Origin: Nitrospiraceae bacterium
Lineage (GTDB): Bacteria; Nitrospirota; Thermodesulfovibrionia; UBA6902
Direction: 5' to 3'
Length of the DNA: 64,000 nt
Assembly (NCBI GenBank): GCA_003599275.1
Contig: QZJG01000010.1
Location: 1 to 64,000, forward strand
Shown here: piece after piece, positions 5,222 through 23,839 of the stretch
Position numbering within the stretch: position 1 is the first letter of the stretch
Layout: each line of letters begins with the position of its first letter
Notes under the pieces: model-generated
Told to the model about the DNA's origin: nothing
Database searches by the model: none
What the model saw: the letters and a program-made list of their open reading frames with translations, nothing else
Program-made: the position numbers and the translations under genes

Positions 5222-6199
5222 ATGACTGCAACCGACATGTTCTGGATTTTCATAAAGACGTTCATCGTGGTAAACGTACTTATGCTTCATGTGGCGTATG
5301 TGGTCTATTTCGAGAGAAAGGTCATCGGCCACATGCAGGCGCGGCTCGGCCCCATGAGGGTCGGCTGGCATGGGCTGCTCCAGCCTATCGCCGACGGGAT
5401 AAAACTCTTTTTCAAGGAAGACATAATCCCTTCAAGCGCCGACAGGGCGGTGTTCTATCTGTCACCCGTTATCGGGGTGATCGCGGCCATTTCCTCTCTC
5501 GCAGTTGTGCCGTTGTGGGAAGGGTTCTCCATTGCAAACCTGAACATCGGTATTTTGTATATGCTGGCGCTCTCTTCCATCGGCGCATACAGCGTTATAC
5601 TTGCGGGATGGGCCTCCAATTCAAAGTATTCGTTCCTGGGGGGCCTGCGTTCATCGGCGCAGGTCATCAGTTATGAGATATCGATGGGACTTAGTCTTGT
5701 CGGAGTTCTGATGTTAGCGGGAAGCGCCAACCTGAGTGATATTGTAAGGGCCCAGTCCGATGCATGGTTTATCCTGTATCAGCCCCTGGCATGTTTTGTA
5801 TTCGTCATGTCCGCCATTGCCGAGACGAACAGGGCGCCCTTTGACCTGCCGGAGGCGGAGACGGAACTTGTGGCAGGATATGTCACTGAATACAGCGGGA
5901 TGCGCTTTGGTCTTTTCTTTATGGCGGAATATGCGGGCATGTTCGCCATGTCGGCGCTGGGGACGATATGCTTTTTAGGCGGCTGGAGCGGACCCGATTT
6001 CGGGATATTCGCACATGTGCCCGGCATTGTCTGGTTTTTGCTTAAGGTCTACGGCTGCATCTTTTTCTACTTCTGGATAAGGGCGACCCTTCCCAGATAC
6101 AGGTATGACCAGCTCATGGACCTCGGATGGAAAATATTTATACCTCTGTCATTAGCGAATATCGTGGTGACGGGGTTGGTGAAGATATTATGGAAGTAG
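5222..6199 (+). CDS. nuoH: NADH-quinone oxidoreductase subunit H
   Basis: This is the membrane subunit at the junction of the peripheral and membrane arms that forms part of the quinone channel. The 325-residue protein has about eight hydrophobic segments. Family motifs include YFERKVIGHMQARLGPMRVG near the N-terminus and ETNRAPFDLPEAETELVAGY in the middle (the acidic loop near quinone). IRATLPRYRYDQLMDLGWK lies near the C-terminus. Length is standard. In most nuo operons nuoI follows directly; here three unrelated genes intervene, the first starting 7 bp after the stop. Confidence 0.97.
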   Translation: MTATDMFWIFIKTFIVVNVLMLHVAYVVYFERKVIGHMQARLGPMRVGWHGLLQPIADGIKLFFKEDIIPSSADRAVFYLSPVIGVIAAISSLAVVPLWEGFSIANLNIGILYMLALSSIGAYSVILAGWASNSKYSFLGGLRSSAQVISYEISMGLSLVGVLMLAGSANLSDIVRAQSDAWFILYQPLACFVFVMSAIAETNRAPFDLPEAETELVAGYVTEYSGMRFGLFFMAEYAGMFAMSALGTICFLGGWSGPDFGIFAHVPGIVWFLLKVYGCIFFYFWIRATLPRYRYDQLMDLGWKIFIPLSLANIVVTGLVKILWK

Positions 6200-6206
6200 G
6201 GAAACT

Positions 6207-7931
6207 ATGACAGTTAACGAATTTTTTAAAAAGATAGGTCTGACTGGTTTGTTTCTATTCAGTATTGTCTTATCCGCTAATGCCAATGCTGCTACTGTTA
6301 TATGGACTGGTGGGGGGACTGACAATCGTGCATCAAATTCTCAGAACTGGTTGGCCAACACAGCGCCTCAATATGGAGATGATGTAGTTTTTAACAGCAC
6401 ATCATCAAAGGATTGCGCATGGGATTTAAATGTTAGGCTGTCATCTTTTGCAGTAAAATCAGGTTACACAGGTAAAGTTACAAAAATATCAGATGCAAGC
6501 CTTACTATTGCAAAGGGTTTTGTTTCTCCAAATGCGCCTGCAGGGCTTACTGCCATTGTTGTATCTTCAAGCCAAATAAATCTTTCATGGACTGATAACT
6601 CTAATAATGAAGCAGGCTTTAAGATTGAGCGGAAGGCCGGCATTGGCGGAACATACACCCAGATTGCATCAGTAGGAGCGGATGTAACTGCATATCCTGA
6701 TACAGGATTAACAGCAGGAACAGCTTACTACTATAGGGTAAGGGCGTATAATTCTTTCGGGGATTCTGCTTATAGCAATGAGGCGAATGCCGCAACCTTA
6801 GTTGTTCAACCAACCGTAATAACCGATTCTGGAATCAGCACAAACGGCAACTCGGCTACATTAAGCGCAACAGTCAACCCTAATGGCTCAGATACTACGG
6901 TTTACTTTGAATGTGGAACAGGTGCATCTTATGACATCAGCACAGCGCCGCAATCAATAGGGAATGGAACGAACGCTATCACTGTGTCAGCCGGTATAGC
7001 CGGACTTTTGCCCGATACTTCTTATAAATGCAGGGTTGTAGTTATTAATCCATATGATACTTTTTATGGCAATGATGTTAATTTTACAACCCCGCCTGTT
7101 ACATTAACCATAATTTCTCCTGTGAACGGCAGCACAATAAACAGACCTGATGTTTTAGTCAGGGGCACGGTTACCAATATAACCGGCAATGAGACAGGGG
7201 TCGTAGCTAATGGAATAGTAGCAACTGATCTTGGCAATCAGTTTGCACTTAATCATGTACCGTTAAATGAAGGTTCAAATACAATAATAGTTACTGCAAC
7301 AGATACAGCAGGTAACACTGCATCAACAGCTATAACAGTCAGCGCGGTAACAACAACGCCTTATGTAAGACTTGATGCAAATATCGAATCGGGCATCCCA
7401 TCGCTTACAACCTATTTCTCAGTTTCAACAAGTATTCCTAATGCGGTATCAACATATCAGATGGATTATGAAGGAGATGCAGTAATTGACTACTCAGGGG
7501 CCTCATTTGACAACATAAGCTTCACATATAATATAGAAGGTGTCTATTATCCGACAATAACTGTTACAGATGACAAGGGGACCAGTTATTCAGACACAAT
7601 TGCAATAGTCGTTTTGAATACAACAGAACTTTATGCGTTGCTAAGTGCTAAATGGGAGGGGGTGATGGATCGTCTAAGCATTAGAGACACAACGACTGCT
7701 TTGACCTATATATCCTCTGACACCAGAGCATCCTATCAGGAGATGTTTAATGCTTTAGTGGATCAGTTGCCATCCATTGTGGCAACACAAACGGAGTTTA
7801 ATATTATTTCCGTAAAGAATAATATAGCAGAATATAAACTTATAACTAATGAAAATGGAACAATATATTCATATGAAGTGATTTTTGTAAGAGATGATAA
7901 TAGTGGTATTTGGCTGATACAGGATTTTTAG
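6207..7931 (+). CDS. Exported multi-domain Ig-fold protein (FN3/Big/PKD-like)
   Basis: The product has 574 residues with a clear signal peptide (hydrophobic core about 11-22, probable cleavage after ANA near residue 28). The domain order read from the sequence starts with a short TGGGTDNRASNSQNW segment resembling autotransporter-associated repeats. An FN3 domain (about 108-198, with INLSWTDNSNNEAGFKIER and YYYRVRAYNSFGDSAYSNE) and a second FN3-like region (about 201-297) follow. Then come a bacterial Ig-like domain (NTIIVTATDTAGNTAS), a PKD-like domain (about 388-470) and a ~100-residue alpha/beta C-terminus. This is an extracellular adhesive or scaffold type, function unknown. The DNA is visibly more AT-rich than flanking nuo genes, and it starts 7 bp after nuoH, so it is probably co-transcribed. 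Confidence 0.8.
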   Translation: MTVNEFFKKIGLTGLFLFSIVLSANANAATVIWTGGGTDNRASNSQNWLANTAPQYGDDVVFNSTSSKDCAWDLNVRLSSFAVKSGYTGKVTKISDASLTIAKGFVSPNAPAGLTAIVVSSSQINLSWTDNSNNEAGFKIERKAGIGGTYTQIASVGADVTAYPDTGLTAGTAYYYRVRAYNSFGDSAYSNEANAATLVVQPTVITDSGISTNGNSATLSATVNPNGSDTTVYFECGTGASYDISTAPQSIGNGTNAITVSAGIAGLLPDTSYKCRVVVINPYDTFYGNDVNFTTPPVTLTIISPVNGSTINRPDVLVRGTVTNITGNETGVVANGIVATDLGNQFALNHVPLNEGSNTIIVTATDTAGNTASTAITVSAVTTTPYVRLDANIESGIPSLTTYFSVSTSIPNAVSTYQMDYEGDAVIDYSGASFDNISFTYNIEGVYYPTITVTDDKGTSYSDTIAIVVLNTTELYALLSAKWEGVMDRLSIRDTTTALTYISSDTRASYQEMFNALVDQLPSIVATQTEFNIISVKNNIAEYKLITNENGTIYSYEVIFVRDDNSGIWLIQDF

Positions 7932-7952
7932 GTATAAAAATATTTCTAAAGA

Positions 7953-8606
7953 ATGAATAACTGGCTCTCAATTAAGAAACTTTTTATATCAAGTACTGGG
8001 ATATTTATTGGTATTTTTCTACTATCATCTGTGAGTTTCGCTGGCTGGCTTATCTATTACAAGCCGGAATTTAGAGGTAAAGTTATAGGTGCAGAGACAA
8101 AAGAACCGATAGAGGGAGCAGTGGTCGTGGTTGTTTATAAGAAACATTCCTTGATAAGCGGACCTGGTGGCGGATATACATCTGTAATAAAAGTCAAAGA
8201 AACTTTAACGGATAAAAATGGAGAATTTTATTTTTCGCCTTATACCACTTTAATTCAGCCCAATTCAATAGAAGATTATGCGGAGTTTATTATATACAAG
8301 CCCGGCTATGGTAGTTATCCCAACTATCAAGTGACTCCTCGTGGACTTAATGCAGTGAGTGAAGAGTTATTTTTCTCAAAGGGGATCGGAAACACGGGCG
8401 AGTTAGAGGCATTGGTTCAGCGAAAGGTAGAATTGATCAGAGTTACCTTTGGCATTGTGGAGCTTCCGATACTCAAGACATGGGAGGATAGGAATAAAGC
8501 CAATATGATTTCACCAACAGACGATGATAATGAGTGGCCGCTTTTACATGAAATGATTAAAAAAGAAGATCAGTGGTTAGAAAACAATAAAGTATGGAGA
8601 GAGTAG
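7953..8606 (+). CDS. Membrane-anchored or exported protein with carboxypeptidase-regulatory-like domain
   Basis: This 217-residue protein has an N-terminal hydrophobic segment (about residues 12-33) that is either an uncleaved anchor or a signal peptide. The segment from about 39 (FRGKVIGAETKEPIEGAVVV) through LTDKNGEFYFSP and FIIYKPGYGSYP follows the carboxypeptidase regulatory-like (CarboxypepD_reg) beta-sandwich pattern. That pattern is common in exported proteins. The C-terminal third is charged and unrecognised. It lies 21 bp after the FN3/PKD gene and overlaps the next gene by 13 bp, so the three form one unit. No enzymatic motif is seen. Confidence 0.6.
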   Translation: MNNWLSIKKLFISSTGIFIGIFLLSSVSFAGWLIYYKPEFRGKVIGAETKEPIEGAVVVVVYKKHSLISGPGGGYTSVIKVKETLTDKNGEFYFSPYTTLIQPNSIEDYAEFIIYKPGYGSYPNYQVTPRGLNAVSEELFFSKGIGNTGELEALVQRKVELIRVTFGIVELPILKTWEDRNKANMISPTDDDNEWPLLHEMIKKEDQWLENNKVWRE

Positions 8607-10567
8607 TGCATTTTAACTATACGGAAAAATGGTATGTATTTATTTTATTACTTATATTGTGCCAATTCCCTATTTTCGCCGTTGCTTTGGAAACGGATAC
8701 ACATAAGAAAATAAATGAGTACATCACTGCAAATACTCTGAATGGTTTTTCACTTGATGCATATTTGAAAAATCAATTGAATTTTTCAAATGGGATAGAA
8801 GAAGAGTTTACATCAAATAAAACAAAAAAAGTTTGGGAATGGGTGCAGTTCGGTGGCGAATACGAGGACATACCATACTGGTGGATGCCTTACCTTCGGT
8901 CCGTCAACCACTTCCACAATCCTTTAACCGGACAGGGTTTCAGCGGCATATGGGGTACAGAGTTTCTTGCTGGTGAGTCCTCTATTCAATGGTCTCAAGA
9001 ACCCATTGGTACACAAAGTCCTGGAGGGCACTACTCCTGGTTTGATGTAAGGGAGTATTTCTATAACGCTCTAACATCAACTAATAAAACAGATAGAGAG
9101 AAAAATTTTACAGATACTTTCAGAGGGCTTGGGCAACTCATGCATTTAGTCGAGGACTTGTCAGTTCCTGAGCATACGAGAGACGACGGGCACTACATAT
9201 TTTATAATTATGAGAAATGGGTTAAAGAAACTATAAAGACTATTGCAGATATTTCACAGTTCACTCCAATTTATTTTGATTCATCAGCAATTGGGAATCC
9301 TAACCCTCTTGCGCCTGTCCCTGTTGCTAATCTTTTTGACACCAAACAATATAATGGGACAAATCCTATTATAACTACCTATTATTCTCAAAATTATTTT
9401 CAAAGAACCATAGGCCTTTCCGAATATACGAATGCCAATTTTCTGAGCCCTGATACTATGTTAACTGCTGACTTTCCCTATCCTAATTGGTCAAGCATAT
9501 ATGAATATGAAGAGATAATTGACAATACAGGGGAGAAGAGAACATATCTTGGCAAGTTTAAAGATGGTGAAAACATAAATCATCTTGCAGCTGGCAGATT
9601 GTTTTATAAATATCTTCCCTCTCCCCTCAGGCATTTAGGGTTAAAGCTTGATAAACGAGTTTATTCTGACTACGCCCAGAAACTCATCCCTCGCGCCGTA
9701 GGCTACTCGGCAGGGCTTTTGGATTATTTTTTCAGGGGGAAAATGGTGGCAGGGATATCGGAGCTTTTTTATGATAGTTTCTGTAATATCATAGGGATTA
9801 AGATGCCATACATTCAAAATTCTACAAATAAGGATGCCATGGGGCCTGGAAATTTAATAGTCTCCTATCAATATAAGCTGCCAGGAGGTGGAGAATTTAT
9901 TTATGGGACTTCAGACGAGAAACCATTGAATGAAAGCATCGGATCATCATACATAAGCTCTTCAGCATTTACTTTCAATTTCAACAACCCTATTCCGCCA
10001 AATGCTCAGGAGATAAAATTAACTCTTATTTTCAAGGGAAAGCTTGGCAATGAAGGCATCTACCCTTATAATAATGAATTTGCAGTGGCAGCACAGGTAT
10101 TACCCGCGATTAATAATAATTGTTCGGTGACTTACAGAGAGTTTGAATCTCTTGTAATTGTTTATCCTGGTTGGCAGAAGGTTGCCTTTAGTTATTTAAA
10201 GATCAATGGTGAGTATCGTTATGAGCCTTTACCCGAAAATCAGGTTTATGTTTTTGATTATCAGAACGTGCATCCCATTTACATTTTCGAACCTGATACT
10301 GTTATGACTATTTGGTGTGAAGATAGCTATCGTAATTTACCCGTTAAAACAGGTGATTGGGCCAAGACAATACTGTATGATTTTTTTGGGGGCCGTTTAA
10401 GGACAGTGATTTTCAATGGCAGCAAGACTGTTTACGATGACATAACAGGAGAAAATCTTGGACCATGTAATAACTGTAACGATGCTGAGCATATTGAATA
10501 CTTTTCTAAATTTGAACCGCATTGTGAGAGACTTACACCATGGGAGGAACCGCCGCCTCCTCCATAA
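8594..10567 (+). CDS. Exported zinc phospholipase C / S1-P1 nuclease-like protein
   Basis: The 657-residue protein has an N-terminal signal-like segment (hydrophobic about 14-31). Immediately after it, ETDTHKKINEYI places a His (H37) as in zinc-dependent phospholipase C-like proteins. The strongest motif is HLVEDLSVPEHTRDDGHY with H184, D188, H194 and H200, matching the H-x3-D-x5-H metal pattern of Zn-PLC/S1-P1 nuclease folds. Further on, YAQKLIPRAVGYSAGLLDYF is a recognisable block of uncharacterised members. The C-terminal ~230 residues look beta-rich and unassigned, ending in a proline-rich tail. A phospholipase or nuclease activity is inference. The start overlaps the upstream gene; nuoI follows. 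Confidence 0.6.
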   Translation: MERVVHFNYTEKWYVFILLLILCQFPIFAVALETDTHKKINEYITANTLNGFSLDAYLKNQLNFSNGIEEEFTSNKTKKVWEWVQFGGEYEDIPYWWMPYLRSVNHFHNPLTGQGFSGIWGTEFLAGESSIQWSQEPIGTQSPGGHYSWFDVREYFYNALTSTNKTDREKNFTDTFRGLGQLMHLVEDLSVPEHTRDDGHYIFYNYEKWVKETIKTIADISQFTPIYFDSSAIGNPNPLAPVPVANLFDTKQYNGTNPIITTYYSQNYFQRTIGLSEYTNANFLSPDTMLTADFPYPNWSSIYEYEEIIDNTGEKRTYLGKFKDGENINHLAAGRLFYKYLPSPLRHLGLKLDKRVYSDYAQKLIPRAVGYSAGLLDYFFRGKMVAGISELFYDSFCNIIGIKMPYIQNSTNKDAMGPGNLIVSYQYKLPGGGEFIYGTSDEKPLNESIGSSYISSSAFTFNFNNPIPPNAQEIKLTLIFKGKLGNEGIYPYNNEFAVAAQVLPAINNNCSVTYREFESLVIVYPGWQKVAFSYLKINGEYRYEPLPENQVYVFDYQNVHPIYIFEPDTVMTIWCEDSYRNLPVKTGDWAKTILYDFFGGRLRTVIFNGSKTVYDDITGENLGPCNNCNDAEHIEYFSKFEPHCERLTPWEEPPPPP

Positions 10568-10639
10568 AATTAAGGTGAAAGAATAAAGAAGAAAAGCAGG
10601 TAGCTTTTGGCTTTATGGTGGATTAAGGAATCTTTAAAA

Positions 10640-11188
10640 ATGACGACACTGGAATTAGTTAAAAAAATACTGTTCATCGAAATCCTTAAAGGGCTCGCCC
10701 TTACGCTGAAGCATTTATTCACTCCGGCGGTCACAAGGCAATACCCTGCCGAGAAGAGAGAGCCATTCCCCGGCTCGCGGGGACTCCATGCCCTTGTGAG
10801 AGATCCCGAGACGGGCAAGGCCAAGTGTGTAGGCTGCGGCCTCTGTGCGGCCATGTGCCCTTCGCAGTGCATCTATATTTATACAAGCGAGGGCGACGAC
10901 CACAAAAAGGTCGTGGACAGATATGAGGTCGAGGTGCTGCGGTGCGTCTTCTGCGCCCTGTGCGTGGAGGCATGCCCTTTCGGCGCGGTCGCACTTACCG
11001 AGCACTTTGAATATTCAGGCTACACGAGAGAAGAATTCTATTATACGAAGGAACGCCTCCTTGAAAACTGGGACAAATATATGGCGGGCGAAAAAGGCAA
11101 AAAATATTTCGAGAAATTCTGGAGGCCGAAATCCGAAGACTTCGGCGCCCCCTCTGTTTTACACGCGGAAGAGAAGGTGGGGCCATGA
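10640..11188 (+). CDS. nuoI: NADH-quinone oxidoreductase subunit I (2x[4Fe-4S])
   Basis: This ferredoxin-like subunit of the connecting module carries N6a and N6b, passing electrons from NuoG to NuoB. The ATG at 10640 is chosen because AAGGA at 10625-10629 is well spaced and the protein (182 residues) then starts like the family. An in-frame upstream start at 10607 would add 11 unconserved residues. Two CX2CX2CX3C sets are visible: C63/66/69/73 and C102/105/108/112, each followed by P. It follows the three-gene insertion and overlaps nuoJ by 4 bp. Confidence 0.95.
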   Translation: MTTLELVKKILFIEILKGLALTLKHLFTPAVTRQYPAEKREPFPGSRGLHALVRDPETGKAKCVGCGLCAAMCPSQCIYIYTSEGDDHKKVVDRYEVEVLRCVFCALCVEACPFGAVALTEHFEYSGYTREEFYYTKERLLENWDKYMAGEKGKKYFEKFWRPKSEDFGAPSVLHAEEKVGP

Positions 11189-22351: not shown

Positions 22352-23650
22352 TCAAATATGAATGTCTCTTTTTCCTGCTTCAATAAGTTTAATTTTCTCA
22401 GCGAGTCCGTTCGCGCTTTTCGCGATCTCCCCATCCAGCAGCTTCTTCAACCGCCCCTTCACTTCATCCGAAGCGCAGTCTTCCATGTATTCCCTGAGAG
22501 AGAGAAGCGCATTCTCCTGACAGAAGTTTTTAATCGCCCCCTTCTCGGCAAGGTGTCTGAATCTCTCCCCGCTTCTTTTCTCTCTGTAGCAGGCGGTGCA
22601 GAGACTCGGCACAAGCCCCAGGTCCGCAATCTTGCCGATGACTTCTTCAAGGCTCCTCGAATCTCCTATCTCAAACTGTTCTGTGTCGCCTTCCTTTATA
22701 TAACCCCGGGGGCTGGTCCTTGATCCGGCGGATATCTGGGAGGCCCCGATGGACAATAATTCATCTCTCAATTCAGCGGGCTCTCTCGTAGAAACCACAA
22801 CTCCGGCATACGGAAGGGCCAGCCGGTAAATCGCAACTATCTTTTTCAGGTCTTCATCGGAAACTCTACGGCATGTATCAGGCAAATTTGCCCCCTGCGC
22901 AGGCTGAAGCCTGGGAACGGAAAGCGTATGGGGCCCGAATCCGTATTTGCTGATCAGCCTTCTGCAATGCGAGATCAGAGCGGCGACTTCCCACCGCCAG
23001 TCATAAAGGCCGAGAAGCACACCCATGCCGACGTCTTCAAACCCTGCCTCGATCGCCTTGTCCATGACTTCTAATCTTGACGCATAATCCGATTTCGGCC
23101 CTGAGGGATGCATTGATCTGTAAGTCGGGATGTGATAGGTCTCCTGAAAGCACTGATATACGCCGATGCCGGAACCCCTGAGCCTCCTGAAATCCTCCAC
23201 ACTCATCGGAGCCGTGTTTGCATGAAGGATCCGGATGTCCGTATTTTTATAGATTGCATCAATAACTTTTTCCAGGTAATCGATGCCTGCCATCTTTGCA
23301 TGTTCACTGGTCACGAGGAGCAGCCTTTTGTATCCCCGCTTTGCAAGTAAGGAAGCTTCTTCCACTGCTTCATTCACACTCAGTGTCTTTCTCCTTGCAT
23401 CCCGGTTGCCTGTTCTGAAACCGCAATAGCCGCAATCATTCACACACTCATTCGACAGATAAAGAGGGGCGAAAAGGACTATTCTTCTGCCGTATACTTT
23501 TTCCTTTACCCTGCGTGCCGTATCCAATATCTCGTCCCATAATTCTTTGTCCCGCAGATCGAGAAGCGCAGAGACCTCTGTGAGATTCAGGACCTGCATC
23601 TCAAGAGATTTGGAAAGGATTTCCCTGATATATGAAGTGTCAGTTTTCAT
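22352..23650 (-). CDS. Radical SAM tyrosine lyase, ThiH position with HydG hallmarks
   Basis: This 432-residue radical SAM enzyme cleaves tyrosine. The CX3CX2C cluster is C69/C73/C76 (NECVNDCGYCGF). By position, first gene after the TPP riboswitch and just before thiS and thiG, it should supply dehydroglycine as 2-iminoacetate synthase. However, it has the C-terminal CX2CX22C (C351, C354, C377, in SLCTACYREKRSG..NFC) and H241 in GPHTLSVPR. These are the ligands of the auxiliary [5Fe-4S] cluster of HydG, absent from E. coli-type ThiH (~377 residues). So it belongs to the HydG-like branch while sitting in a thiamine operon. Thiazole synthesis is the contextual role; CO/cyanide chemistry cannot be excluded. 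Confidence 0.85.
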   Translation of the reverse strand: MKTDTSYIREILSKSLEMQVLNLTEVSALLDLRDKELWDEILDTARRVKEKVYGRRIVLFAPLYLSNECVNDCGYCGFRTGNRDARRKTLSVNEAVEEASLLAKRGYKRLLLVTSEHAKMAGIDYLEKVIDAIYKNTDIRILHANTAPMSVEDFRRLRGSGIGVYQCFQETYHIPTYRSMHPSGPKSDYASRLEVMDKAIEAGFEDVGMGVLLGLYDWRWEVAALISHCRRLISKYGFGPHTLSVPRLQPAQGANLPDTCRRVSDEDLKKIVAIYRLALPYAGVVVSTREPAELRDELLSIGASQISAGSRTSPRGYIKEGDTEQFEIGDSRSLEEVIGKIADLGLVPSLCTACYREKRSGERFRHLAEKGAIKNFCQENALLSLREYMEDCASDEVKGRLKKLLDGEIAKSANGLAEKIKLIEAGKRDIHI

Positions 23651-23723: not shown

Positions 23724-23737
23724 ATTAATAATTACTG

Positions 23738-23830
23738 CCATTCCCTTTCCTGCGCTGGTATTATCCGGTTCAGGTTCAGAGGGTCTTCCCGATGCTTTGG
23801 AAACTCTCAGGCTCTGATGCCTCCCCTAGG
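23738..23830 (-). promoter_or_regulatory. TPP (THI-box) riboswitch aptamer
   Basis: The minus strand shows the conserved THI elements in order: GGGGAGGCATCAGAGCCTGAGA, GACCCTCTGAACCTGAACCGG, then TAATACCAGCGCAGGAAAGGGA. It is preceded by a sigma70 promoter and followed by a terminator hairpin, and it controls the thiH-like/thiS/thiG/thiE/thiC/rsmE unit by transcription attenuation. Confidence 0.95.
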
Positions 23831-23839
23831 GTAGTTTAA

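Follow-up and report, generated by a model that had tools for sequence, protein, structure and literature searches.

The insertion of genes into operons is common. Phylostratigraphy in E. coli and B. subtilis has identified newer genes inserted into pre-existing operons (PMC12218254). The cassette described here, located in the nuo operon, resembles these insertions: new genes are found in an old operon and are probably under its control. Unlike them, it brings three genes together, lies inside a gene and appears to have captured the initiation region of its host gene. Literature searches returned nothing relevant on a three-gene exported module of this type, or on insertions in nuo.

A three-gene cassette between nuoH and nuoI

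The window, i.e., the whole stretch of 64,000 nucleotides that was analysed, is part of contig C13 of a draft genome (3.05 Mb, 74 contigs, about 89% complete). Three intact open reading frames on the plus strand, c1 to c3, separate nuoH from nuoI. The features are the following:

5222-6199, plus strand: nuoH, upstream neighbour, intact (PF00146, E 1e-127; 88-80% identity to same-genus NuoH)
6200-6236, plus strand: putative captured nuoI initiation region, i.e., the gap after nuoH, the start codon and the first 10 codons, MTVNEFFKKI (NuoI-start PSSM and DNA identity)
6207-7931, plus strand: c1, modular protein of 574 aa, predicted to be exported (Pfam; homologues in G041 and G018)
7599-7928, plus strand: C-terminal domain of c1, ~105 residues, signature of the module, predicted NTF2-like fold (alignment of 14 copies, AF2, Foldseek)
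7953-8606, plus strand: c2, 217-aa protein, predicted to be exported, with a CarboxypepD_reg-like (transthyretin-like) domain (Pfam, below the cut-off, E 7e-4)
8594-10567, plus strand: c3, Zn-phospholipase-C-like protein of 657 aa, predicted to be exported, overlapping c2 (invariant residues, PDB profile match)
10568-10639, plus strand: 72-bp right flank, in which AAGGA precedes the surviving nuoI (no more similar to the nuoH end than expected by chance)
10640-10669, plus strand: second nuoI 5' end, MTTLELVKKI, opening the surviving gene (NuoI-start PSSM 20.2)
10640-11188, plus strand: nuoI, downstream neighbour, intact (TIGR01971, above the cut-off; 76-85% identity to same-genus NuoI)

An earlier note on this DNA had described an AT-richer block of three same-strand genes that splits nuoH from nuoI, and this description is accurate, as are its spacings: 7 bp between nuoH and c1, 21 bp between c1 and c2, a 13-bp overlap of c2 and c3, and 72 bp between c3 and nuoI. 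The cassette genes have a GC content of 0.38-0.40 and a GC3 of 0.31-0.36, the lowest GC3 of all genes in the window, compared with 0.57-0.66 for the nuo genes, and the composition jumps abruptly at both cassette edges. The AT-richness is less telling as a proof of foreign origin, since the module has a low GC content (0.385-0.436) in most hosts; the contrast with the host is largest in the window copy.

Compared with shuffled sequence, the region is not enriched in promoter- or terminator-like sites, and none is convincing at either edge. This absence is compatible with read-through, but it is not evidence for it. Read-through from nuo into the cassette would be the simplest expectation.

The left edge and the start of nuoI

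The earlier note had proposed a comparison of nuoH-nuoI junctions in related genomes. NuoH was taken from 40 of 41 genomes of the same genus, family, order and class, together with 80 loci of the collection, partly from the same genomes. The names of these relatives, Nitrospiraceae and Thermodesulfovibrionia, assign the organism, an uncultured bacterium, to Nitrospirota. The cassette is absent between nuoH and nuoI at the roughly 110 other NuoH loci examined, and no sister strain sharing the junction was found among the relatives; one genome carries the insert. At every readable locus, nuoI lies directly after nuoH (gap about -7 to 320 bp) without cassette genes; hence, as judged from the NuoH loci compared, the insertion is derived and, so far, unique.

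In the relatives, nuoI starts with ATGAC(T/A)GTTAA(C/T)GAATT..., encoding MTVNEFVKKI or a similar peptide. The start of c1 is ATGACAGTTAACGAATTTTTTAAAAAGATA (MTVNEFFKKI), located 7 bp downstream of nuoH, where the nuoI of relatives starts. On a PSSM built from 29 NuoI starts, with 1,928 ORF starts as background (mean -16.7, standard deviation 6.6), the c1 start scored 23.7, among the genuine NuoI (about 20-29), and the best clearly non-NuoI start scored 4.8. One background start, MTFNELTKRIFM, reached 16.3 and presumably belongs to a more distant NuoI. The likeness extends to the DNA: the c1 5' end is identical to the nuoI of relatives at 23 of 27 nt, and the mean identity to 29 relatives is ~0.8 up to nt 30 and ~0.25 beyond (0.64-0.89 per 6-nt block up to nt 30, 0.14-0.37 from nt 31). 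At other sites, the homologues of c1 differ in their N-termini, and their alignment to c1 mostly begins at about residue 15. Given the NuoI-type start, the collapse of identity at nt 30 and the other N-termini of the homologues, the left junction of the cassette is placed within nuoI, after codon 10, with c1 carrying what the alignments indicate to be the old nuoI start. By inspection, the gap before the c1 start (TAGGGAAACT) resembles the pre-nuoI gap in G006.

The putative signal peptide of c1 would thus be chimeric, with a nuoI-derived n-region followed by its own h-region, GLTGLFLFSIVLSANANA. Apparently, the module took over the start codon of nuoI together with its ribosome-binding site, and both are now joined to the module's signal peptide. 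The best explanation, with a probability of roughly 0.7, is that a recurrent c1-c2-c3 module entered the nuo operon inside nuoI, right after codon 10, and captured the nuoI start, with a complete nuoI downstream. At the left junction, the ribosome-binding site, start codon and 10 codons of nuoI would have been joined in frame to the c1 signal peptide, replacing only its charged N-terminal stretch; as the initiation region is fused in frame, c1 would be started from the old nuoI site. At the right junction, a full-length nuoI with a start of its own would have been kept, or regained later. As a likely consequence, the nuo promoter drives the genes of the three putatively exported proteins, and a new initiation site serves nuoI. 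Complex I is presumably functional.

The interpretation of the earlier note is retained in part. A derived insertion of exported proteins is supported by the absence of the cassette in relatives and by the recurrence of the module elsewhere; its site would be inside nuoI and not in the intergenic gap. Joint expression with the respiration genes, which the note also proposed, would be a likely consequence.

It is unusual for an insertion to lie inside a core gene of complex I and still to show how the incoming genes came by their translation start. The cassette offers a testable example of how foreign exported proteins may be coupled to a housekeeping operon in a single step.

The right edge and alternative histories

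The surviving nuoI is complete and has its own NuoI-type start, so that a diverged repeat of ~30 bp, made of two copies of the nuoI 5' end (6207-6236 and 10640-10669; 20 of 30 nt identical), flanks the insert. By homology, this repeat is considered real and diverged, and the statement in the earlier note that the edges carry no terminal repeat was wrong. Beyond these copies, toward the nuoH end and the gap, the similarity was no better than in shuffled sequences. With 10 of 30 positions different between them, the two starts do not represent a fresh target duplication, and no exact short target duplication was found. Codons 3-4 of the surviving start are atypical compared with most relatives, and the sequence is typical from codon 5 onward; hence, the insert might also have supplied the first four codons. 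The data agree equally with an old duplication, with recombination involving a related strain and with the recruitment of a new start.

A tentative alternative, which concerns the right edge only, is that nuoI was disrupted, or that the module came joined to nuoI, and that recombination with another species of the genus gave an intact gene while the captured start was kept. The difference of 10 of 30 nt fits the range between species of the genus (mean 7.4 differing positions, 0-13), and the surviving start resembles the MTT-type starts of G008 and G014. Moreover, a second complex I cluster, on contig C36, may have tolerated a transient loss of nuoI. However, the rest of nuoI and the downstream genes are as similar to the genus as the upstream genes, a recombination breakpoint was not demonstrated, and an old duplication followed by drift explains the data equally well. 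The C36 cluster (G000, L185) is divergent: its NuoH is 55% identical, and within the genus a similar cluster is found only in G004.

It is improbable that the junctions arose as artefacts during assembly of the genome from a metagenome. The draft state of the genome and the abrupt composition jump at both edges speak for it; two false joins would be needed, however, and yet a plausible signal peptide is kept in frame at the left junction and nuoI is intact at the right. Furthermore, no long exact repeat able to mislead the assembler was found at the edges.

The reading of the earlier note, in which the cassette occupies the nuoH-nuoI gap with its own start and the likeness to nuoI is due to chance, is very unlikely. 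Signal-peptide n-regions are short and lysine-rich, and some likeness to KK-containing starts is possible. However, no start other than recognisable NuoI-type ones comes near the PSSM score of c1, the match holds for protein and DNA, and it combines the exact position after nuoH with a sharp boundary at nt 30.

The same note had seen no transposase or integrase, and indeed none of the three genes of the insert is a recombinase. Terminal inverted repeats at the insert ends were not found beyond chance. A transposon or insertion sequence was rejected, in the absence of a transposase or integrase, terminal inverted repeats and an exact target duplication. Viral carriage of the module was also rejected, as no relatives of c3 were found on viral contigs in IMG/VR. 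There is only a slight chance that the module represents a mobile unit of a kind so far overlooked, which inserts at the 5' ends of genes, seizing the start codon and ribosome-binding site for its signal peptide while the target gene keeps a working start. If this were true, the module could spread through essential operons without killing the host. Among the other module copies, inspection of the N-termini revealed none that uses the start of a neighbouring gene.

The module elsewhere and its predicted proteins

The cassette belongs to a family of modules in which an Ig/FN3 protein with an NTF2-like C-terminus is followed by a CarboxypepD_reg-like and then by a Zn-PLC-like protein. The c1-c2-c3 order is kept at about ten other sites, in G018 (three contigs), G009 (a tandem series), G008, G041, G049, G019, G048 and G047 (two copies), and partial copies are present in G014 and G001. 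The copies of G019 and G048 and one of those of G047 have common flanking genes and may represent a single inherited site. Across the class, relatives of c3 occur in 45 of 230 genomes and in 35 of 115 genera: the family is patchy and often multicopy. The nuo insertion draws attention to this patchy family of three-gene exported modules in the lineage.

These modules are like the window copy in order, domains and predicted export. The difference lies in the location: the other copies are at non-nuo sites and, by inspection, lack a captured neighbour start, whereas the window copy combines a nuo site with an apparently captured start. In the c3 tree, the window copy groups with G018, which is of another genus, and not with G009 or G008 of its own genus (support 100/99); the window module is 60-75% identical to G018. 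For c2, the comparison with G018 gives a dN of about 0.2, a dS of about 1.0-1.2 and a dN/dS of about 0.17-0.19, which points to purifying selection on the module genes. An ancestral presence of the cassette in nuo, followed by its loss in the relatives, can practically be dismissed: the intact ORFs, and nothing more, speak for it, against its absence from nuo in all nine other members of the genus and all family and order members examined, its low GC3, and closest relatives that lie in another genus at non-nuo sites.

Some hosts carry degenerate or repeated sets. In G018, tandem c2-c3 copies with a truncated c3 are found (L188, 7713-14349), and G009 has a series of c1-c2-c3 sets (L191, 13437-19901, and L192, 1-2979), which suggests that the module has duplicated locally and decayed more than once. 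Small toxin-antitoxin-like (PIN-type) gene pairs lie beside module copies at L188, L189, L190, L197 and L203.

All three cassette proteins have hydrophobic N-termini, as read directly from the sequences. The gene identities given in the earlier note are confirmed for the FN3 domain of the first gene, which is above the Pfam cut-off, and remain below it for the CarboxypepD_reg and Zn_dep_PLPC matches of the second and third. In c1, FN3 (E 9e-12) and Glucodextran_B (E 1e-9) exceed the cut-off, and the protein consists of FN3, Glucodextran_B/Ig-like, PKD-like and C-terminal NTF2-like domains. Its homologues are 60% identical over residues 15-573 in G041 and 61-64% identical in G018. The C-terminal domain is conserved in 14 copies and was modelled by AF2 with a pLDDT of 92; Foldseek matched it to NTF2-like proteins with a probability of ~1, but an E-value of about 1e-3. 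Most likely, c1 serves in binding, as a modular protein of the cell surface or the extracellular space. The second protein, c2, is 74% and 70% identical to the G018 copies and is most likely a small partner protein.

For c3, the match to PF00882 (Zn_dep_PLPC) scored 13.3 bits, below the gathering cut-off of 26.8. In 15 copies, H37, E91-D92, N105-HFH108, H184xxxD188xxxPxH194, D198xH200 and E207 are invariant; the His, Asp and Glu residues among them are presumably zinc ligands in the expected family pattern. A profile comparison with the PDB identified phospholipase C 8cqm (E 0.0065), aligned over HLVEDxxVPxH. AF2 modelled c3 poorly (pLDDT 62.5), and Foldseek gave no convincing match, with a PLC at rank 27; the structural matches were set aside because the model is too weak. 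The PF00882/8cqm superfamily has HxxxDxxxPxH, D...HFxNP and further His/Glu in zinc-ligand order, as does c3, which differs from it by the sub-gathering Pfam score and a large extra C-terminal region. The most probable role of c3 is that of a secreted phosphodiesterase that depends on zinc and belongs to the phospholipase C / S1-P1 type.

In most same-genus relatives (L006-L016), the nuoH-nuoI gaps (52-134 bp) contain short palindromic REP-like repeats. As these differ among the gaps, the junction seems often to accept small insertions. In genus g2, an 851-bp gap separates nuoL from nuoM in G010 (L183), with the same gap length in G024 (L186). In G010, it holds a gene for a 278-aa exported protein (L183, 7549-8385, minus strand), whose sequence, judged by eye, resembles an alpha-type carbonic anhydrase. 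In this family, nuo may have received exported proteins on more than one occasion.

Elsewhere in the window, a TPP riboswitch (RF00059) is located at 23730-23837 on the minus strand, upstream of the gene at 22352-23650, which is probably thiC.
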